Shown here piece after piece: positions 9,045 through 30,763 of a stretch of 33,815 nucleotides of DNA. The notes below the pieces were generated by a model. The model was not told where the DNA came from. It saw only the letters and a list, made by a program, of their open reading frames with translations, and did no database searches. The number at the start of each line of letters is the position of its first letter. Within the stretch, counting starts at the first letter, position 1. Source of the stretch: Chitinophagales bacterium (lineage in GTDB: Bacteria; Bacteroidota; Bacteroidia; Chitinophagales; Chitinophagaceae); the NCBI GenBank assembly GCA_030832645.1, contig JAURIR010000016.1, forward strand, positions 1-33,815, given 5' to 3'. Made by a program: the position numbers and the translations under genes.

Positions 9045-9800
9045 ATGAAAAAGAAAGTATTGATCACAGGTGCAAGTTCAGGATTTGGAAAAGCAATGGC
9101 AGAGCGCTTTGCAAAAGAAGGTTGGAATCTCGTTATTACCGGTAGAAGAAAAGACCGTTTAGAAAAAATTGCTGCTACACTTACCGATTTGTATGGTACA
9201 GAAGTTCATATCAAATTATTTGATGTGCAAGATCGAAAACAAGTATTTGCTGCTTTGGAAAACGATGCTGCTATTGAGAACTTAGATATATTAGTAAACA
9301 ATGCAGGATTGGCCTTAGGGAGGGATTATTTTGATGAGGCAAATTTGGATGATTGGGAAACCATGATTGATACAAATCTGAAGGGATTACTGTACGTTTC
9401 CAAAGCTGTTTTGCCTTCATTTATAAAAAGTGGAAAAGGGCATATCATCAACATTGGTTCAACTGCTGGCAAAGAAGTTTATGAGAAGGGAAATGTGTAT
9501 TGTGCTACCAAAACTTCGGTAGAAGCTATAAGTCAGGCGATGCGAATTGATATGTTGCGACATAAAATAAAGGTTACTGCTATTCATCCGGGTGCTGCAG
9601 AAACAGAATTCTCCATTGTACGATTCAAGGGCGACGAAGCAACAGCTAAAACTGTTTATGATGGCTACCAGCCTTTGAAAGCAGAAGATGTTGCAGATAC
9701 CACTTATTATTGTGCTACGCTGCCAGAACATGTTTGTATCAATAGTTTGGTAATGACTTGTACCTCTCAGGCCAATTCCTTTTATTTATTGCGCCAGTGA
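9045..9800 (+). CDS. Short-chain dehydrogenase/reductase (YdfG-like)
   Basis: A 251-residue classical SDR. It has the NADP-binding TGASSGFGKAMAERF at the N-terminus followed by the basic GRRKDR, which favours NADP(H). NNAG (ILVNNAGLALG), the catalytic Ser region (INIGSTAGKEVY) and YCATK (catalytic Tyr-x-x-x-Lys) are all present. The sequence pattern is closest to YdfG-type 3-hydroxy acid / serine dehydrogenases, but the substrate cannot be read from sequence. It starts 3 nt after the Lnb-like gene. Its 3' end overlaps the convergent sprA 3' end by 15 nt (9786-9800), leaving no room for a terminator between them. Confidence 0.92.
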   Translation: MKKKVLITGASSGFGKAMAERFAKEGWNLVITGRRKDRLEKIAATLTDLYGTEVHIKLFDVQDRKQVFAALENDAAIENLDILVNNAGLALGRDYFDEANLDDWETMIDTNLKGLLYVSKAVLPSFIKSGKGHIINIGSTAGKEVYEKGNVYCATKTSVEAISQAMRIDMLRHKIKVTAIHPGAAETEFSIVRFKGDEATAKTVYDGYQPLKAEDVADTTYYCATLPEHVCINSLVMTCTSQANSFYLLRQ

Positions 9801-12800
9801 TATCCTGATTTGTAAACCACCCCTGGTGTTTACTGATGGTGCTGAGTTCGATATATAGGGGCTCACTCTTCTCTGGTCAAAATAGAGTTGAATATTGATG
9901 CGATTGCTCAATACATAATCCACTGTTGGTCGAATACTGATTACTTTTTGTCCACCTGTTGCAAAAGCATTTTTCTGATCCAATCTGGAATTTGAATTGA
10001 TATCATCTCGGATGCTGAAATCGAGTGCAAACGTAATATCGTTTCCTGCAGGTGTTGATTGTCCGGGTGCTGGTTCTTTTTTGCTTGCGTTTAAATTGAA
10101 TGGCAGGTTTACTCCTCTTTTTCTCCAACGCATCCCAAAAGTAATTTCAGTTGAATGAACTTCACTCAATTGAAAATCTGCTAAACTAAGGCTGAGCTGA
10201 CGCGATTTTTTATATTCAAATCTTCCTGAAAGTTGACTGACAGTTGTGAAATCTATACCAATCAATGGGGCAAATTGTTCCGAGATCAATAGATTTGGAA
10301 CCAAAAAATAGGGAATGAAATTTCCTGTAAGTGTATCTACAAATGATGGAAAACCATACAGCAAAGTATCCTGAAACAACAGCGCAGAGTTGAAGCTGTT
10401 CATACTCAGCGTTGAATTATATCCATGCGATACAGTGAAATTGCTCAGCACATTTTCAATGCCAGGAATTTTACTCAAGCCATTGTACGTGACTCTCCAA
10501 TTGGGCTTGGGCATGTATCCCTTGAAAGGATTTGTTTTTACAGTGCCTGTTTCACCGGTATTCAACAACCCAATAGTGTTCGCGTCTTTCTTGGTATAAG
10601 CTGCAATGAACGAAGGAACCAAAACGTCTTGCGCATACCTGCCATATCCTTTGTAATAACCATCTGCACCTTGTGTTTTGCTGTAGGGGTTTCTTTCTCC
10701 TAGCCGCTTCGAAAGTGTCAATCGATTTTCTTCAAAGGTTTTGAACGTTTGACTTATGGAGTTCGGATCAAATTTCCCAAACAAGGTTTGGAAGGAGATA
10801 TAGCTTACACTAAAGCCTCCACCCGAATAAGGATTTAGTGCAGAAAATTGTCCTGTATTCGCAGTGTCTTTGAAAAGGGTAGAGAAATTTTTGTTCAAGG
10901 TTCTATCGAGATTAACATCAATCATAAAATCTTTGAACGGCTCTAATTGGGCAGTAAGGTTTAATTTTTGATCATAGTTCTGCAAAAACAAATTATTCAA
11001 TAGCGGGTCGCTGGTAATCAATCCTTTTTTTGCAATGGATTGCAACCATGCTTGGTTGGGTTGTTTACCTGTAATGAAATCAATACCAGGTGACAAACTC
11101 TTCCAGTTTTGTCCGAATGCTTGTGTACTGTCTTTATATCCTGGTAAAAATGTCGTTCCTCCTTCGTTGTAAGAAGCCCCTACACGTTTCAATGCAGTGA
11201 TGATTCTTAAAATTGTTTTTTCTGCTCCAGACAGAACAATTTCTTTTTTCTCTTTTGGTTCTTTCTCTGCTTTTACTTTGTCCTCAATGATGTTGCCGTC
11301 CTTATCTTTCTTTATTTTTTTCTTTTTGCTAGTTGATTTCTGCTTGGGTTGAGGTGCTGTGGCAGCCCCGCTTCCATCAATCGCTCTTAAAAATCTTACT
11401 TTGGTGTAGAGCTGTGTAAAATTCAGTTCGGCGGTTGCTCCTGCCTGGTTGCTGTTTTGAATGGTATTTCCTAAGTTAACTGCAAGTCTCGAGGCTCCCA
11501 CCCAGTTGTAGGTTGTTCGATAAGCAAGATTCAAGGAGGTCCAATCCAACAATGGAAAAGATGCAAGAGGTACATTGTACGTTAAATCTGCGTTGTGTGA
11601 ATAGAGTGTATTTCTTCCTCCCTTGAGAAAATTCCTGAGTAAAGAATCCTGTTTCGCCTTGGTATCGATTCTGCCAAATGGCTCATCCACTCTGGAATTA
11701 TTGGTAGCACGAAAATCAAAATTTAAGGACTTCGACAAATCCCATCTCAAATTATAATTGCGGTCTACCACAAAATACTTGTCGTATGTTTCGGGGATTT
11801 TATATTTTCCTCCACCAACGTTTCGTGGACGAAAGGCGCCAAATTGTCGTCTTGTATCCATCCGAAATCCAATCAGCGATGGCATAAGATTGAAGTTTAC
11901 GTTCTTGATAAAATCGACCCATTTGCTTTGGATTGGAATGATTTTCTTGAACGGCTCAATATATTTTGGTTGTTTACTGTAATTATATCCTACGCCTCCC
12001 TGTGTTTTTGCTACTTCGTTGTTTTCGGTAAGTGGATTGTGCTGTTTGGTTTGGGTAAGCGAGTAGCTGAAATCAAAATTTGATAAACTCCACAACTGAA
12101 TTTTTTTATCTTGACGTTGTGCAAAACGAACATTTGTAAAGTTGATGGTTTTGATTCCAGTATAATCCACTGCATCCGCATTGATCGAATCTCTTTTATT
12201 TCTGTACAAGGAAAATTTATCTTTCAGCAATATATCGCGGTCGTAGGGGTCATATTGCGGAGCACTGGCCATTTCAGAGAGATTCAAAAAGAAAGGAATC
12301 TCCAAGCCAAATTCTTTGGGCAATAATTTTCCTAACTGAAGATTTGCTGAAAGATCGTATTGTTTCAAGTCGTTTCTGTAACGTTCGTTAACTCTTTGTT
12401 CCAATTGTCCAAATCCAACGGTATGCATATTGGCCGAAACAGATACGGAACCTAAATCCGCCAATTGAATATTCATCTGTCCTACTGCCGCCCATGCACT
12501 GTTTTCGTTGATACCCGATAACCTTAACTCATTGATCCATACTTCTGCACTCAGGGGTCTTCCTCCGGAAATATCTTTTGGATTTTCTACACCTGCGAGT
12601 ATCCCTTTGATTTCTGCAAGATTAGGATTACCAAATATGGAGAATATTTTTCCGTTGATTCTCTTACGGTAAATCGCAGTGGGGTTATTTGTTTTTAAGT
12701 TTCGTTCGTTTTTTAATTCAATCAATGTCTGTAAATCAAAATTGAGTTCGTTCTCACTTGGCCAGATCAATTTTTCATCGGACGTTCCAAACGAAGTTAT

Positions 12801-15800
12801 TTTCAGTGGATACTTTATCTCGTAATAATGGTTGATATAATCTGTACCCAATCTAACCACTGCATAAATTTCTCCATCATTGACTTTTGCATATTGTTTC
12901 AAACTCTCTGCATGATAGAACATGGAGATGGATTTGTATTGTCGCAGGTCATGATTAAATCCTTTAAAGACTGCTCTATTTTTTCCGTCCTCCAAATTCA
13001 GCACTGTCATACTCAATGCCTGTTCGTTCTGCAATATGTTTATGCCGCCGTTACTCAAGGTTTGCACTCTTTCAATACCTGGCGGCGTTCTGTAGGGTAT
13101 AGGATCTCTTTTATCGTTCTCTTCAATGTTTACAGCTGTCACATTAAAAAAGGTATTGTCTCCACTTTTACTGAGAGGAATATAGGTTCCTGCAGTATCC
13201 AGCTCGTAAGCAAAACTTCTCCAGTTGTTTCTTACCAATTCTAATTTTGCAAATCTCAATACAGCAGAGTCGGCAAAATCTGTCAAGAACATTCTGATGA
13301 ATCGGATCGATTTGAAATCAGGAATTTCTCCCACTTTACTCGTGTATGCATTTATTGGAACTCGGAACTGATACCAGATTTGATCTTGCTTTGTTCCATC
13401 GGAAAGATTTACGTTCACTACCTTTTTATCTGCAATAAAATTTTTACCTACTTGCATAATCGGGTCGCCCGATGGCTTCAACTCAATTCGATATTGAAAA
13501 TATTCTTCCGCCTCGTTCAAGGTGTTATCCCTGTTCAAATCTTCACCGTCTGGGTATAATGTAAAAGCCGATGCAAAGGCATCTCCAGCTTTTGCAATAG
13601 GAGAATTTCCTTGTGGGTTATTGAAATTTTTATAGCGTTTTAGAATTCCAGCATTTTCTTTGTCGTAATCTGCATCTCTGTAATATTTAAAATTATCAGA
13701 GGAAGGATCTGCACTGGCTTCTTTGTAAGCATTGTTTGCTACACCTAATCTGCCTGCCAAATCGTTCAAATAATCTTTTCTTTTTGCAACTTCTGCCGAA
13801 TCCGTCAATCCATCCAGTCCAACATCTTGGTAAGGACGATCGGTAGGTTCATTGCTGAAACCGGTTGTGATCTGTGTTGGATTCAATGGAACTTTGCCCC
13901 AATTCGAAGTGGCCACGCTTGAAGGGATGGTAGGCGTAGGCAATCCGTTTTCATAAAATCTTCTGGAATCTTTCAAAATGTCTTCTGAGATATTTCCCAG
14001 ATTGATATACATGGAACCTCCTGCTGGATTGGTGTTTTTTATAAACGGATCCAGCACCCAGAAATCAATAAATTCAATATTAGCAGTTTCGAAATCAGTT
14101 TGATCGATGTTCCGCATGATGCCTCCCCAACGTTTGTTCGGATTTTTCAGCAATCCATTGGATTCAATATTGGTGGCATCATAATTGTACGGGCCTCTTT
14201 CCTTTGGATAATACGCCATGTCGAATGTTACCAACTGACTTTGTCCGAAGTCGGGTGTTCTTCTTGGAAATATTTCCTGTTGTCCAACACTTCTCACTCT
14301 CGGATCGGAAAGTTGTTCGATATCGTTTTTAAGCGGGTTGTTTAAATTTCTTTTCTCTTGCAGTACAGGTTCGATATTGTACCAGGCAAGTTTTGCTCTG
14401 TTCTTTCCGTAATTAATGTCGTCGAATGCAGTCGCTTCCGGAAACATGGTGTTTCCATTTCTGTCTTTTGATCCTGCCGGGGTAGAGGCCAGTGTCCAGC
14501 TGATGATAGGGAAGCGCAAATCTATGCTTGATTTCGTTCCTTCAAAATCATCCAGGTATACCAATCCAGCTCCTCCCTTTCCAATTTGAGGTGCATGGCC
14601 TGGTTTCAATTGTGCCACTTCCGCCGATGCATTGATGCTCGATGTTCCAGTGGCTTCATAAAAAGGAAGTTTACTCAACCACTTACTCAATCGGGGCACT
14701 TCACTATTGTACGACATGTCAAGACCTGCCATGCTGTTTTTTATCGGATCAGATCCGTATTCCATTTTGGTAAAAAACGGACGCTCACCCAATCGTACCA
14801 TGTTTCCTCCCACTGAGAATTTATCGCTGAAGAGATAGTCCCATCTTAAACCGGTGTACGTTCTTTGTTGAACTCCAAATGTGGCATTGTTTTCAAACTG
14901 AACATTGACGGGCACTCCCGATTGTTTGATTGAGCTGTTGATGATACGCAGTGTACCCGATAAATAGTCAATTGTGTAATCAACGTTCTCGGTCAACTTC
15001 TGTCCACCTGCTGTAACCGTTACCGAACCCTGTGGAATATTAAAGGCATTCAAAGAAATTTCTCCTGATGATCCTCCAGATGATTTGGAACTTCCCTTCA
15101 TAATAAACCTGTTCAGGTTGGCATAGGTTTGTGCAATTGCCTTGATGGTATCGTAAAGTGGATAGAACAAATATTTATCGCGCAACTTCTGATCTGTAAA
15201 TGCAAAATCTAAATCGTGTCCGAACGGTTCAAGCACTGGAAACATCACACGGCTTTGAAAGGAGTTGATGGTGAAGCCTTCTACATAGTCGAATACACCA
15301 TCGGGTTGCGGATCGTTTTGATTGTTCAGTCGATCCAGGTTCAATAAAGTAATCAATGGTACACCTGCTTGATCACCTTCAGTGATATATCTTTTTTCAC
15401 CACCACCCGGCTCTTGGTATAATACGTTGAATTGGAAATCTTGGCGTTCCAGTTGTCCAGATCCTACTGCATACACATTCTTCATCATTAAATCCCACAT
15501 GGGTAGAGAAGTTCTCTGCGAGGTAGCCTTTAATAATTTTAGGAAAAGAATTTTTGAAACACCACTTGTAGAATCAACAGGAACATCTTGTGCAAATTCA
15601 CCCACCTGAAATACTTTTCCATTTACCGTGTATTGATAGGCAACACCCAACACTTCATCGGGCTGCAATGTTACATTAAGGGATATGAAACCGAGTTGTC
15701 TGTTGAAATAATATTGCGATGAGTCTAATTTTCTTGCATAGGTTTTTTCGAAGTCTCTGATGGGTTGTAAGCCGATGGAATTCATAAAATTCACTACCTG

Positions 15801-17021
15801 CGCTGGATTGCGGCTGTTTGGACTGCTAGTGATTTTACTGTACAGATCGTTTGATTGGTTCGAAGGATACACCGAACCAGGACGTGGGTTGATTACAGGA
15901 GGTTGTTGGTAGGGTTTGTCCTCCGCGAGGTCCATCAAACCAACCACATCCCTTGCATTGGTGGTGGTACCATATCGGTTGGTAACCCATACCTCTAATC
16001 GCAATAGTTGTACTTGAGAATTTACAATGGGTAAATTTTTCATTCCCTTATTGAATTCTCTTCTAAAATGTTGTGCCAATAAGAAGTGTCTGTTCTCTTC
16101 GTATTCGTCTGCTTTGATCTCAAATGGCATCGAAGTAGATCCGCCCTTGAATGCACTGGATTGACGTTGTGAACGTTGACTGGCAAATACGGTTGTAAGC
16201 CAAAGTTTTCCAAATTGCATTTGTGCTTTGATACCAAACAATTGTTGCGCGCCCGGAATCAAACTTCCTTTGGTGGCAAATGAAGTGTTTCCCACTTCTA
16301 CTTTTTTAAATACATCCTCTGCGCCACCTGTATAATCCAGTTTGAGCTTGTTTTCAAAATCAAATGTGGAGAGGGTGTTGTAGCTGATGGGAAATTTCAT
16401 TTTGTCTCCAATGTTTCCCAGTACATTCAAATTAGCAGCCATGTCAAAATCCAACCCTCCGTTTTTTCTTGCTCTTTCCGGTAATGTCGGATTCTTGATA
16501 TTTTGGCCTTGATACCCAGTGGTGATGTTCACCTCACCTTGTGGACGAATATCTACCACACCCGTGCCGAAGAGGCGGTTGAACAATTCCTCTCCCATGC
16601 TCAATCTCGGCTTCACCAATTTTCGATTCAATAGACTGATGGTATTCGATCTTTTCTGAAAATAATCTTGTTCTGCTTTTCTGGATTGTAATCTCAGGTA
16701 TTCATCGAATGTTAGTGTGGTGGGCTTTCTGAAATACCGGTTGCCTATTTTTTCAACGATATAATATTCTTTGGTTTTGTAGTCGTATACAAAAGAGTCT
16801 TTGAGATTGGAGGGATCTTTTAAATCGAAGGGATTTTTACGGGGTGTAGAAATTTTATCGCTTCTTCTGTCATTGATTGGATAGAGCAATGAGTCGTTGA
16901 AAGGCACCGTATCTCTGGAGACAGTAGCTTGTTGATAGGGAATAGAAGTTTCTGCGCGTCCAAAAGAGACACACAGAACAAGGGTAGTCAGTAGTGTTAT
17001 CCTATGCGATAACCGTTTCAA
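9786..17021 (-). CDS. sprA: Cell-surface protein SprA, type IX secretion outer-membrane translocon
   Basis: SprA (Sov in Porphyromonas) is the giant outer-membrane barrel through which T9SS cargo leaves the cell; in gliding Bacteroidota it is also needed for motility. The 2411-residue length matches the family (about 2,400). The signal peptide is MKRLSHRITLLTTLVLCVSFGRA. The rest is very long, Asn-, Tyr- and Phe-rich and strand-like, ending in GGLQIRISLAQ. Residues ~1893-1927 form a lysine/glutamate-rich low-complexity stretch, likely a loop. No ATG lies near the N-terminus. The start appears to be TTG at 17021-17019, preceded by AGAAGGAAATA, an unusual Shine-Dalgarno for this genome. ruvA lies 34 nt upstream; ruvA-sprA adjacency is a known Bacteroidota arrangement. 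Secreted cargo with T9SS C-terminal domains is not seen in this window. Confidence 0.97.
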   Translation of the reverse strand: MKRLSHRITLLTTLVLCVSFGRAETSIPYQQATVSRDTVPFNDSLLYPINDRRSDKISTPRKNPFDLKDPSNLKDSFVYDYKTKEYYIVEKIGNRYFRKPTTLTFDEYLRLQSRKAEQDYFQKRSNTISLLNRKLVKPRLSMGEELFNRLFGTGVVDIRPQGEVNITTGYQGQNIKNPTLPERARKNGGLDFDMAANLNVLGNIGDKMKFPISYNTLSTFDFENKLKLDYTGGAEDVFKKVEVGNTSFATKGSLIPGAQQLFGIKAQMQFGKLWLTTVFASQRSQRQSSAFKGGSTSMPFEIKADEYEENRHFLLAQHFRREFNKGMKNLPIVNSQVQLLRLEVWVTNRYGTTTNARDVVGLMDLAEDKPYQQPPVINPRPGSVYPSNQSNDLYSKITSSPNSRNPAQVVNFMNSIGLQPIRDFEKTYARKLDSSQYYFNRQLGFISLNVTLQPDEVLGVAYQYTVNGKVFQVGEFAQDVPVDSTSGVSKILFLKLLKATSQRTSLPMWDLMMKNVYAVGSGQLERQDFQFNVLYQEPGGGEKRYITEGDQAGVPLITLLNLDRLNNQNDPQPDGVFDYVEGFTINSFQSRVMFPVLEPFGHDLDFAFTDQKLRDKYLFYPLYDTIKAIAQTYANLNRFIMKGSSKSSGGSSGEISLNAFNIPQGSVTVTAGGQKLTENVDYTIDYLSGTLRIINSSIKQSGVPVNVQFENNATFGVQQRTYTGLRWDYLFSDKFSVGGNMVRLGERPFFTKMEYGSDPIKNSMAGLDMSYNSEVPRLSKWLSKLPFYEATGTSSINASAEVAQLKPGHAPQIGKGGAGLVYLDDFEGTKSSIDLRFPIISWTLASTPAGSKDRNGNTMFPEATAFDDINYGKNRAKLAWYNIEPVLQEKRNLNNPLKNDIEQLSDPRVRSVGQQEIFPRRTPDFGQSQLVTFDMAYYPKERGPYNYDATNIESNGLLKNPNKRWGGIMRNIDQTDFETANIEFIDFWVLDPFIKNTNPAGGSMYINLGNISEDILKDSRRFYENGLPTPTIPSSVATSNWGKVPLNPTQITTGFSNEPTDRPYQDVGLDGLTDSAEVAKRKDYLNDLAGRLGVANNAYKEASADPSSDNFKYYRDADYDKENAGILKRYKNFNNPQGNSPIAKAGDAFASAFTLYPDGEDLNRDNTLNEAEEYFQYRIELKPSGDPIMQVGKNFIADKKVVNVNLSDGTKQDQIWYQFRVPINAYTSKVGEIPDFKSIRFIRMFLTDFADSAVLRFAKLELVRNNWRSFAYELDTAGTYIPLSKSGDNTFFNVTAVNIEENDKRDPIPYRTPPGIERVQTLSNGGINILQNEQALSMTVLNLEDGKNRAVFKGFNHDLRQYKSISMFYHAESLKQYAKVNDGEIYAVVRLGTDYINHYYEIKYPLKITSFGTSDEKLIWPSENELNFDLQTLIELKNERNLKTNNPTAIYRKRINGKIFSIFGNPNLAEIKGILAGVENPKDISGGRPLSAEVWINELRLSGINENSAWAAVGQMNIQLADLGSVSVSANMHTVGFGQLEQRVNERYRNDLKQYDLSANLQLGKLLPKEFGLEIPFFLNLSEMASAPQYDPYDRDILLKDKFSLYRNKRDSINADAVDYTGIKTINFTNVRFAQRQDKKIQLWSLSNFDFSYSLTQTKQHNPLTENNEVAKTQGGVGYNYSKQPKYIEPFKKIIPIQSKWVDFIKNVNFNLMPSLIGFRMDTRRQFGAFRPRNVGGGKYKIPETYDKYFVVDRNYNLRWDLSKSLNFDFRATNNSRVDEPFGRIDTKAKQDSLLRNFLKGGRNTLYSHNADLTYNVPLASFPLLDWTSLNLAYRTTYNWVGASRLAVNLGNTIQNSNQAGATAELNFTQLYTKVRFLRAIDGSGAATAPQPKQKSTSKKKKIKKDKDGNIIEDKVKAEKEPKEKKEIVLSGAEKTILRIITALKRVGASYNEGGTTFLPGYKDSTQAFGQNWKSLSPGIDFITGKQPNQAWLQSIAKKGLITSDPLLNNLFLQNYDQKLNLTAQLEPFKDFMIDVNLDRTLNKNFSTLFKDTANTGQFSALNPYSGGGFSVSYISFQTLFGKFDPNSISQTFKTFEENRLTLSKRLGERNPYSKTQGADGYYKGYGRYAQDVLVPSFIAAYTKKDANTIGLLNTGETGTVKTNPFKGYMPKPNWRVTYNGLSKIPGIENVLSNFTVSHGYNSTLSMNSFNSALLFQDTLLYGFPSFVDTLTGNFIPYFLVPNLLISEQFAPLIGIDFTTVSQLSGRFEYKKSRQLSLSLADFQLSEVHSTEITFGMRWRKRGVNLPFNLNASKKEPAPGQSTPAGNDITFALDFSIRDDINSNSRLDQKNAFATGGQKVISIRPTVDYVLSNRINIQLYFDQRRVSPYISNSAPSVNTRGGLQIRISLAQ

Positions 17022-28578: not shown

Positions 28579-30036
28579 ATGCACAATGCGTTTGAAAAAA
28601 TTACCGATGCTGTTAGTAAGTGGGATGATGATAAGTCAATTGAAATCAATTCCCTCAAACAGGCAGGCAGCAACCGACAATATTTTCGCTTGAACAAAGG
28701 AGCAGAATCTTTTATTCTCACCTACAATCCCCTCAATATTCCTGAAAACAATGCGTTTGTTTCATTTACAAAACATTTTTCTGATCAGGGATTGTATGTT
28801 CCAAAAATTGAATTTGTCGATCCGCAGTGGCAGTTTTATGTGCAGTCGGACCTGGGAGACCTTTCATTGTTTGATGTGATGCAAAAAGAAGGGTTCTCTG
28901 AAAACGTTAAAAATCTCTTTAAGAAAACCTGTGCTTCCCTTGCGCAATTGCAAATAGTGGGCGGAAAGAATATTGATTATAGTAATTGCATTGCCACCAG
29001 ATCGTTTGATAAGCAGGCTATTTATTCAGACCTTCTTTATTTTCTCTACTACTTTGTAAGAGCGCTTGATCTTCCGTACGATAAAAATTTATTGCTGAAC
29101 GACTTTGAGATGCTGAGCAGTTATTTGATGCAGGAAGAGCACCAGTATTTCATGCACCGCGATTGCCAGAGCAGAAATATAATGATCAAAGACGACAGCG
29201 TTTGGTTCATCGACTACCAGGGTGGAATGCAAGGCGCGCTTCAATATGATATTGCTTCACTTTTATGGCAGGCACGTGCTCAAATGCCCTATGAGTGGAG
29301 AGATGAATTGGTAGAGTACTATTTTACTCAGGCCAATCAATTGCTTGAGGGGGCATTGAGTAAACAAGATTTTTTAGCCAACTACGATGGATTTGTTTTG
29401 ATTCGTATGTTGCAAACACTAGGCGCTTACGGGTTTCGTGGTTTGTTTGAAAGAAAACCACATTTCATTGCCAGTATTCCTTTTGCACTTCATAACCTGA
29501 AATGGTTTTTGGAAAACAAAAAGCTTCCAATCCGATTACCTGCATTGCAAAAAGTATTGAATGAAATTGTATCTGATGATGTGCTTGCAAAATTTGCAAC
29601 TGTAACCGCTGCACCCGATTGCAAGTTGACCGTTCATATCAACAGCTTCTCTTATAAAAAAGGAGTTCCCGACGATCAGTTTGGAAACGGGGGAGGATAT
29701 GTTTTCGATTGCAGAGGCATATTGAATCCGGGGAGAATTGAAGAATACAAAACACAAACGGGACGCGATAAATCTGTGCAAGAATTTCTTTTACATAAAA
29801 CCAGTATGCCTTCCTTTCTTCAGCATGTATTTGGACTCATCGATATTTCAGTTGAAGATTATATCAAAAGAGATTTTGAAGGACTCACCATAAGCTTTGG
29901 TTGTACGGGTGGTCAGCACAGAAGTGTTTTTGCAGCAGATCGTTTGGCAGAGCACCTGAAAGACAAATACAAGGTAAATACCGTTGTTCGGCACATAGAA
30001 CAAGATGCTAAAAATTGGATCAATGAACGGTATTGA
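28579..30036 (+). CDS. AmgK-like sugar kinase fused to a RapZ C-terminal domain
   Basis: 485 residues in two parts. Residues ~1-330 are an aminoglycoside-phosphotransferase-fold kinase, with Brenner motif HRDCQSRNIM (His193, Asp195, Asn200) and metal-binding FIDYQGGMQGALQYDIASLL (Asp212). This second motif and the downstream helices resemble AmgK, the N-acetylmuramate/N-acetylglucosamine kinase of cell-wall recycling. Residues ~348-485 match the C-terminal domain of RapZ (SFSYKKGVP, VFDCRGILNPGR, then FGCTGGQHRSVFAADRLAEHL), the part that in E. coli senses glucosamine-6-phosphate and binds small RNA. The RapZ N-terminal P-loop kinase domain is absent and replaced by the APH kinase. The next gene is a MurU-like nucleotidyltransferase, overlapping by 14 nt, which matches the Pseudomonas amgK-murU pairing. 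Substrate and any RNA role are inference. Confidence 0.88.
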   Translation: MHNAFEKITDAVSKWDDDKSIEINSLKQAGSNRQYFRLNKGAESFILTYNPLNIPENNAFVSFTKHFSDQGLYVPKIEFVDPQWQFYVQSDLGDLSLFDVMQKEGFSENVKNLFKKTCASLAQLQIVGGKNIDYSNCIATRSFDKQAIYSDLLYFLYYFVRALDLPYDKNLLLNDFEMLSSYLMQEEHQYFMHRDCQSRNIMIKDDSVWFIDYQGGMQGALQYDIASLLWQARAQMPYEWRDELVEYYFTQANQLLEGALSKQDFLANYDGFVLIRMLQTLGAYGFRGLFERKPHFIASIPFALHNLKWFLENKKLPIRLPALQKVLNEIVSDDVLAKFATVTAAPDCKLTVHINSFSYKKGVPDDQFGNGGGYVFDCRGILNPGRIEEYKTQTGRDKSVQEFLLHKTSMPSFLQHVFGLIDISVEDYIKRDFEGLTISFGCTGGQHRSVFAADRLAEHLKDKYKVNTVVRHIEQDAKNWINERY

Positions 30037-30763
30037 TCAATGCAAGGCCATGATTTTTGCTGCTGGATTGGGCACCCGTCTCAAACCTTTCACAGATCAA
30101 CATCCCAAGGCATTGGCTCCTGTAAATGGGAAAACCTTGTTGCAACGAAATCTTGAATATTTATCCTCGTTTGGTATTTCTGAGTTTGTTGTAAATGTTC
30201 ATCATTTTGCTGATCAAATATTCGAAGAGTTAAAACGCTTGCAGTCGGATAAGATCAGTTTCCAAATCTCTCACGAAATCGATGGGCCATATGAAACAGG
30301 TGGTGGATTATCTTTTGCCTCCACTTACTTGCGCGAAGGTGATCAGCCTTTTGTTCTAATGAATGTAGATATATTGACCAATCTTGATTTGACGGGGATG
30401 TTTGATTATCACCAGAAGATCAATCCATTGGCAACGCTAGCGGTTAGCGAACGAAAAAGTTCAAGACAATTCTTGTTTGACGAAGAAATGAAATTGGTCG
30501 GCTGGAAAAATAATACTTCGAATGAAGTCAAATGGGTAGATGGAGAAGTCAAGGAGGTAAGCGCGCTATCATTTTCAGGTATTCACATCATCCATCCTTC
30601 AATATTTAACTACCTCCCTTCAAGTGGTAGTTTTTCCATTGTAGATAGTTATTTAAAAATTGCAAAAGAAGAATTGATCATTGGATATGATCATTCCGGG
30701 GATCTAATTTTGGATGTGGGAAAGCCAGAATCGTTGGCAAAAGCAGCAACGATGTTTCTCTGA
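30023..30763 (+). CDS. Sugar-1-phosphate nucleotidyltransferase (MurU-like)
   Basis: 246 residues from an ATG at 30023, which overlaps the kinase fusion by 14 nt; a start at 30005 or 30050 is also possible. The signature AMIFAAGLGTRLKPFTDQHPKAL is the NTP-binding loop of NTP_transferase enzymes. VLMNVDILTNLDL carries the metal-binding Asp, and ILDVGKPESLAKA closes the protein. The length and absence of an acyltransferase repeat domain fit MurU (MurNAc-1-P uridylyltransferase) rather than GlmU. With the AmgK-like kinase upstream it would convert MurNAc to UDP-MurNAc without going through GlcNAc-6-P. This is inference from the pair. Its TGA abuts the convergent rsmI stop. Confidence 0.85.
   Translation: MNGIDQCKAMIFAAGLGTRLKPFTDQHPKALAPVNGKTLLQRNLEYLSSFGISEFVVNVHHFADQIFEELKRLQSDKISFQISHEIDGPYETGGGLSFASTYLREGDQPFVLMNVDILTNLDLTGMFDYHQKINPLATLAVSERKSSRQFLFDEEMKLVGWKNNTSNEVKWVDGEVKEVSALSFSGIHIIHPSIFNYLPSSGSFSIVDSYLKIAKEELIIGYDHSGDLILDVGKPESLAKAATMFL

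Follow-up and report, generated by a model that had tools for sequence, protein, structure and literature searches.

A 33,815-nucleotide stretch of DNA from a Chitinophagales bacterium of the family Chitinophagaceae (contig JAURIR010000016.1; hereafter 'the window') encodes, in a single gene, a kinase similar to AmgK fused to the C-terminal domain (CTD) of RapZ, and this gene overlaps another specifying a nucleotidyltransferase similar to MurU. The AmgK-like kinase, RapZ CTD and MurU-like transferase constitute a real, recurrent three-part system. The fusion is interpreted here, at a probability of roughly 0.4, as a two-enzyme salvage protein in which the CTD would be a C-X5-R phosphatase of N-acetylmuramic acid 6-phosphate (MurNAc-6-phosphate), feeding the AmgK-like kinase and then the MurU-like enzyme.

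According to this proposal, an AnmK or MurK-like kinase would yield MurNAc-6-phosphate, which the CTD, as a cysteine-dependent sugar-phosphate phosphatase, would convert to MurNAc, the job of MupP in Pseudomonas. The fused kinase would then phosphorylate MurNAc at C1, possibly with channelling of the substrate, and the MurU-like product would make uridine diphosphate (UDP)-MurNAc, bringing the recycled wall sugar back into peptidoglycan synthesis. In gut and environmental Bacteroidota, the system links the RapZ CTD, which is widely conserved and poorly understood, to a single step of metabolism; should the CTD be an enzyme, it would close a gap in the recycling of the cell wall and have implications for the puzzling results concerning C247 and glucosamine-6-phosphate (GlcN6P) in Escherichia coli RapZ.

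The fused gene and its partner

The features of the system, with amino acids (aa) numbered in the fusion protein, are as follows.

28579..30036, + strand: open reading frame (ORF) of the AmgK-like kinase and RapZ CTD fusion, 485 aa
28579..29616, + strand: APH-fold kinase domain, aa 1-346 (Pfam APH; AmgK the best NCBIfam kinase model; PDB 3csv)
29155..29184, + strand: catalytic loop HRDCQSRNIM (D195, N200), conserved in 34 aligned fusions
29206..29226, + strand: metal-binding motif FIDYQGG (D212), conserved in the same 34 fusions
29623..30009, + strand: RapZ CTD, aa 349-477 (PF22740; fold match to the E. coli RapZ CTD, 5o5s)
29683..29697, + strand: GNGGG insert in the CTD (GGGxxFD pattern in an alignment of 45 CTDs)
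29731..29733, + strand: G385, at E. coli pocket position H190 (same alignment)
29902..29925, + strand: C-X5-R-S oxyanion loop CTGGQHRS, C442-S449 (same alignment; strand-loop-helix context in the model)
30005..30763, + strand: MurU-like nucleotidyltransferase gene, overlapping the fusion gene (Pfam, NCBIfam and PDB sequence match 4y7t)

A first-pass annotation, made from the sequence alone, had described an APH-fold, AmgK-like kinase joined to a RapZ CTD and followed by an overlapping nucleoside triphosphate (NTP) transferase gene of the MurU type, and each part of this description was borne out. The three motifs on which it relied, HRDCQSRNIM, FIDYQGG and FGCTGGQHRSV, all lie within the one ORF. 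Pfam APH matches aa 30-249 (E 1.3e-12; 48.4 bits, cut-off 23.2) and PF22740, the RapZ CTD, matches aa 350-473 (E 1.4e-33; 116.1 bits, cut-off 27). Pfam detects neither PF03668, the N-terminal P-loop domain of RapZ, nor a HAD domain, the family to which MupP belongs, anywhere in the fusion protein, and the NCBIfam model of full-length RapZ, NF003828, scores 101.8 bits, under its cut-off of 244. The kinase takes the place of the N-terminal P-loop domain found in RapZ (YhbJ/YvcJ), the GlcN6P-sensing RNase adapter. An AlphaFold model of the whole fusion has a mean predicted local distance difference test score (pLDDT) of 90.1, and the CTD modelled alone reaches 92.5.

The top NCBIfam kinase models for the first domain are both AmgK, NF045759 (52.6 bits, cut-off 550) and NF045698 (45.9 bits, cut-off 500). 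A fold search found PDB 3csv to be the closest structure (Z 30.5; root mean square deviation (rmsd) 2.5 over 309 residues), as befits an APH fold, and across the 34 aligned fusions R194, D195, R199 and N200 of the catalytic loop are invariant, as are D212, Q214 and G216 of the metal-binding motif. On this sequence evidence the kinase is proposed to phosphorylate MurNAc at position 1. The partner gene shares 32 or 14 bases with the kinase gene, depending on which of two alternative starts, 30005 or 30023, is used. Its product matches Pfam NTP_transferase (PF00483, E 2.2e-14) and, among the 25 listed of 28 matching NCBIfam models, is best described by the MurU model NF045761 (116.8 bits, cut-off 250), with a second MurU model at 99.4 bits and the best non-MurU model at 68.5. 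Within its G-x-G-T-R-x-x-P signature and beyond, G9, G11, R13, P16 and K23 are invariant in 26 aligned sequences and T12 is found in at least 90%. The best match in a PDB sequence search was 4y7t (5.9e-21), which we take to be Pseudomonas putida MurU, followed by 8hhd, a chain named MurNAc-1-P uridylyltransferase.

Both AmgK and MurU scores fall far under the equivalog cut-offs, so the two proteins are distant relatives rather than members of these families by that criterion. Together with a resemblance of the kinase part to the N-acetylhexosamine 1-kinase 4ocj (fold search, Z 20.4), this could be taken to mean that the pair makes some other activated sugar from the free sugar, such as UDP-N-acetylglucosamine (UDP-GlcNAc) or UDP-N-acetylgalactosamine (UDP-GalNAc), with the CTD serving that pathway. 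Such a role appears unlikely, given that AmgK and MurU are still the top curated models for the two genes, that 4y7t and then 8hhd head the PDB sequence matches, and that relatives in one further family, described below, adjoin a NamZ muramidase-type gene.

The closest known counterpart is found in Pseudomonas, where, according to PMC5371407, AnmK forms MurNAc-6-phosphate, the HAD protein MupP dephosphorylates it, and AmgK and MurU generate UDP-MurNAc. Enzymes of the same kinds are encoded by adjacent genes in the window, and the logic of AnmK, phosphatase, AmgK and MurU would be shared; here, by contrast, the kinase bears a RapZ CTD, both enzymes diverge from the curated models, and the phosphatase step would fall to the CTD rather than to a HAD protein. 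In Tannerella forsythia, the role of MurA/B is reportedly taken by AmgK and MurU (PMC7670621), and the Tannerellaceae relative Parabacteroides distasonis has the present fusion adjoining a MurU-like gene. In the open PubMed Central (PMC) literature, no paper was found combining AmgK and RapZ; the T. forsythia report was the only one combining AmgK, MurU and Bacteroidetes, RapZ and Bacteroides occurred together only in a paper on phage resistance in E. coli, and YvcJ and p-nitrophenyl phosphate did not occur together among the matches listed. PMC9790009, which by its title concerns wall recycling, was the only such paper among the matches listed for MupP and Bacteroid.

Distribution across the Bacteroidota

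The recurrence of the fusion in other Bacteroidota, anticipated by the first-pass annotation, was evident in two samples: a named collection of 41 related loci and a set of 198 genomes from the phylum. The former comprises 24 intact fusions, three fusions with frame breaks (L020, L021 and L027, the last with no MurU seen on its short contig) and 14 loci with a separate CTD gene, found in Chryseobacterium and its relatives, two Flavobacteriaceae metagenome-assembled genomes and Epilithonimonas. One separate-CTD locus, L039, has frame breaks in both kinase and MurU, and four Epilithonimonas genomes have the CTD gene adjoining MurU, with the kinase encoded at another site. In the phylum sample the CTD was present in 24 of 198 genomes, fused in 20 and stand-alone in four. 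As it recurs in both the related loci and the phylum sample, the fusion is no accident of assembly.

All 24 CTD genomes also carry an AmgK-like kinase scoring at least 250 bits and a MurU-like gene scoring at least 190 bits, these limits having been chosen after gaps in the scores were seen (253 to 156 and 192 to 148 bits, respectively). Only one further genome of the 198, G009, has kinase and MurU at these limits without the CTD, and the co-occurrence of CTD and kinase gives a Fisher p of 5e-30, uncorrected for kinship. The MurU-like gene is near the CTD in 18 of the 24 loci; the remaining six genomes carry it at another location. Since the N-terminal domain of RapZ scored above its cut-off in none of the 198 genomes, the CTD is tied there to this pathway alone. 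Kinases of one family, f16, score 91-156 bits; they were kept outside the AmgK triad count and used as a CTD-less comparison, with one f16 genome, G056, having no kinase match.

The fusion extends to Bacteroides and Parabacteroides, though the domain is not universal in the former genus, being missing from the control genome of Bacteroides ihuae, which has AnmK. Records in a plasmid collection from Bacteroides finegoldii (L099) and P. distasonis (L100) contain the same fusion, 476 aa long and adjoining a nucleotidyltransferase gene. Those of Prevotella sp. oral taxon 299 and Phocaeicola massiliensis, which have no gene tables, also encode it, followed in P. massiliensis by a MurU-like ORF; no such ORF was seen in a short scan downstream of the Prevotella fusion. 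The B. finegoldii and P. distasonis proteins are publicly annotated as 'RNase adapter RapZ', a name that hides the kinase, and the present results suggest that this annotation of the Bacteroidota fusion is misleading. Two species of one genus differ in arrangement, the CTD being fused in G124 (L050) and divided from the kinase by one same-frame stop in G031 (L051). Short records from human faeces labelled 'Bacteriophage sp.' contain CTDs 49-52% identical to that of the window, possibly representing bacterial DNA in a phage collection.

Candidate sources and fates of MurNAc-6-phosphate

AnmK alone was rejected as an explanation of the CTD, as it occurs in 17 of the 24 CTD genomes and in 119 of the 174 others. 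A search for BadF-type kinases (PF01869), which covered 21 genomes, gave a strong match in each of the seven CTD genomes without AnmK (G019, G031, G116, G124, G140, G156 and G188). At these seven loci (L130-L136) the kinase gene lies close to one for an AmpG-like permease, directly adjoining it in six and with a single gene intervening in G156; the G031 and G116 permeases match the AmpG family model best, with scores under its cut-off. The one BadF-type kinase searched against the PDB had as its best match the MurNAc/GlcNAc kinase structure 8zo3 (4.6e-40), ahead of NAGK 2ch5 (2.7e-11). AnmK in 17 genomes and BadF-type kinases in seven thus provide a candidate source of MurNAc-6-phosphate in all 24 CTD genomes, making it a plausible metabolite. 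Four of the BadF loci were searched further: genes of glycoside hydrolase family 3 (GH3) adjoin the permease gene in G031, G116 and G124 and lie one ORF further away in G140, and in all four a gene combining GH3 with a beta-lactamase domain is close to the BadF kinase and AmpG-like permease.

MurQ, the usual outlet for MurNAc-6-phosphate, is frequently absent, being missing from 13 of the 24 CTD genomes when absence is defined as no match better than 1e-11; six genomes with strong matches under the curated cut-off (G091, G130, G001, G006, G011 and G016) were scored as having it. Only seven of the 198 genomes have AnmK without MurQ, and all seven, from five families, have the CTD, an outcome whose probability would be 1.6e-7 for independent genomes; the genomes here are related. 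AnmK was found in none of the 43 genomes with a kinase and no CTD (G009 and 42 of family f16). At the two f16 loci read (L104:4462-9077 and L106:641-5245), AmgK-like, MurU-like, NamZ-type and sodium:solute symporter genes stand in a row without a CTD, the NamZ-type gene being identified through Pfam in L106 and by the position of a match in L104, and the MurU-like protein of L106 having a hexapeptide tail. The NamZ-type and symporter genes at these loci suggest import of free MurNAc and are consistent with its use. Presence of NamZ itself does not discriminate, as it was found in 29 of the 30 genomes examined.

The pattern of AnmK, BadF-type kinases and MurQ is that expected of a MurNAc-6-phosphate phosphatase, but it would also arise from a sensor of MurNAc-6-phosphate, and the statistics are weakened by relatedness among the genomes. 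An enzymatic step from MurNAc-6-phosphate to MurNAc accounts for it no less well than a sensor does.

The RapZ domain and its oxyanion loop

Residues were surveyed in 45 CTDs, 38 from Bacteroidota and seven from full-length RapZ, and are given in E. coli RapZ numbering. The modelled CTD superimposes on that of E. coli RapZ (5o5s) with a Z of 19.7 and an rmsd of 1.6 over 123 residues, and the two groups also share the GCTGGxHRSV loop and most polar residues; in a tree of all 45, however, one branch (100/100) separates the 38 from the seven. Identical in all 38 are S166, F167, F181, D182, R184, N188, P189, G200 and H276, along with C247, T248, G249, G250, H252, R253, S254 and V255 of the oxyanion loop, and every one of these is constant in the seven full-length proteins as well, except T248 (six of seven).

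The first-pass annotation had suggested a possibly self-regulated kinase with the CTD as sensor, and had named the proposed GlcN6P pocket as a test. Four of the five pocket positions, T248, G249, H252 and R253, are retained by all 38 Bacteroidota CTDs; the fifth, H190, is histidine in five full-length RapZ and tyrosine in two, whereas it is glycine in all 38, which also have, ahead of the conserved FDxR, a GNGGG-type insert (GGGxxFD) found in none of the seven. A non-catalytic CTD that switches the kinase on or off upon binding GlcN6P, MurNAc-6-phosphate or a similar phosphate, in cis or, where separate, in trans, is one of two live options and a close rival of the phosphatase, though we rate it clearly short of even odds. 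Retention of most of the pocket speaks for such a switch, as does the covalent linkage of CTD and kinase in 20 of 24 genomes. The glycine in place of H190 and the added insert count against it; moreover, the invariant cysteine of the loop and the numerous polar residues go, in our judgement, beyond what mere binding requires, and the link to AnmK and MurK-like kinases would be unpredicted unless the ligand is the product of those kinases. Since the CTD is often encoded separately, even away from the kinase, self-regulation in cis fits less well, and these stand-alone, sometimes unlinked genes are counted in favour of an enzyme.

The alternative of a phosphatase derives from the loop itself. 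A C-X5-R-S/T motif is present in all 45 CTDs (C247-X5-R253-S254 in E. coli, C442 to R448 and S449 in the window), and assignment of secondary structure to the AlphaFold model by DSSP places it between a strand (435-442) and a helix (448-464). This spacing and strand-loop-helix placement are those of protein tyrosine phosphatase (PTP)-type enzymes. Oxyanion binding, a further point in common, is known from E. coli RapZ, whose loop, as part of a pocket that includes H190, binds sulfate or malonate (PMC5737377). Furthermore, replacement of C247 by alanine or serine abolished the function of E. coli RapZ; the authors of that work (PMC9841335) considered that the C247 thiol may be catalytic and described density in the pocket that probably represents a 'chemically transformed product' of GlcN6P.

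A third possibility, in keeping with the public annotation of the Bacteroides and Parabacteroides proteins, is that the CTD remains an RNase adapter or RNA-binding regulator. Of seven basic residues facing RNA in E. coli RapZ, as listed in PMC9841335, three positions are still basic in Bacteroidota CTDs: K170 in 35 of 38, R184 in 38 and R196, as lysine or arginine, in 34. By contrast, R238, basic in all seven full-length RapZ, is replaced by phenylalanine, tryptophan or tyrosine in 38 of 38; K194, R211 and K251 are mostly non-basic, though they vary among full-length RapZ too; and the basic C-terminal tail of the E. coli protein is missing. The CTD has a net charge of 0 in the window and +6 in E. 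coli, which is weak evidence given that full-length RapZ of Priestia has only +1. With the RNA-contact residues only partly kept and the N-terminal domain of RapZ missing, RNA binding by these CTDs is less likely, and the adapter role is considered very improbable.

Several considerations weigh against a phosphatase. We know of no phosphatase activity for any RapZ CTD, and C-X5-R-S is a short motif within one conserved family, without an identified general acid. RapZ was the only confident match in the fold search of the CTD; there was no significant match to PTP-type enzymes, dual-specificity phosphatases (Z 5.2; Foldseek E ~1) being at noise level, tied with unrelated folds and ranked under phosphofructokinase, a comparison of modelled structure that neither supports nor excludes such an activity. 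The assignments of AmgK and MurU lie under the NCBIfam cut-offs. For the two BadF-type kinases compared, the one matched to 8zo3 and that of G156, the sole close NCBIfam model is NagK (102.9 and 128.3 bits, cut-off 370), and judging from this similarity the BadF-type kinases could be GlcNAc kinases. MurQ is present in 11 of the 24 CTD genomes, so MurNAc-6-phosphate need not be a dead end there; these include the window's own genome, which has AnmK, NamZ, and MurQ beside a NagK-like kinase gene (L114:4637-6299). In six CTD-less kinase genomes, PF01869 gave two strong matches in G048, apparently to another kind of BadF protein, and one weak match in G052, and with 42 of the 43 CTD-less genomes coming from one family, independent contrasts are few. 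HAD proteins resembling Gph and MupP (TIGR01449) were found, none over the cut-off, in all 30 genomes examined; they therefore do not discriminate, and these genomes may have a HAD-type MupP. Finally, all variants in the pull-down reported in PMC9841335 lose RNA binding, C247 being counted among the relevant residues, and this loss would suffice for the C247 phenotype without catalysis.

Between phosphatase and sensor, we lean slightly towards the phosphatase. More broadly, and tentatively, as an idea we rate clearly below an even chance, RapZ CTDs may be sugar-phosphate phosphatases that depend on a cysteine and form a family so far overlooked. The Bacteroidota domain would then be the missing MurNAc-6-phosphate phosphatase of wall recycling in that phylum, with the fusion shifting phosphate from C6 to C1, and E. 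coli RapZ would descend from a phosphatase that became a sensor of GlcN6P and an adapter for RNA.

The genes neighbouring the kinase and MurU pair in the window, encoding RuvX, UbiA, SpoU, TP_methylase, Xaa-Pro aminopeptidase and others, give no functional clue. Elsewhere in the window, a 2411-aa ORF (9786-17021, - strand) has two stretches matching SprA_N, a domain of a motility related/secretion protein.

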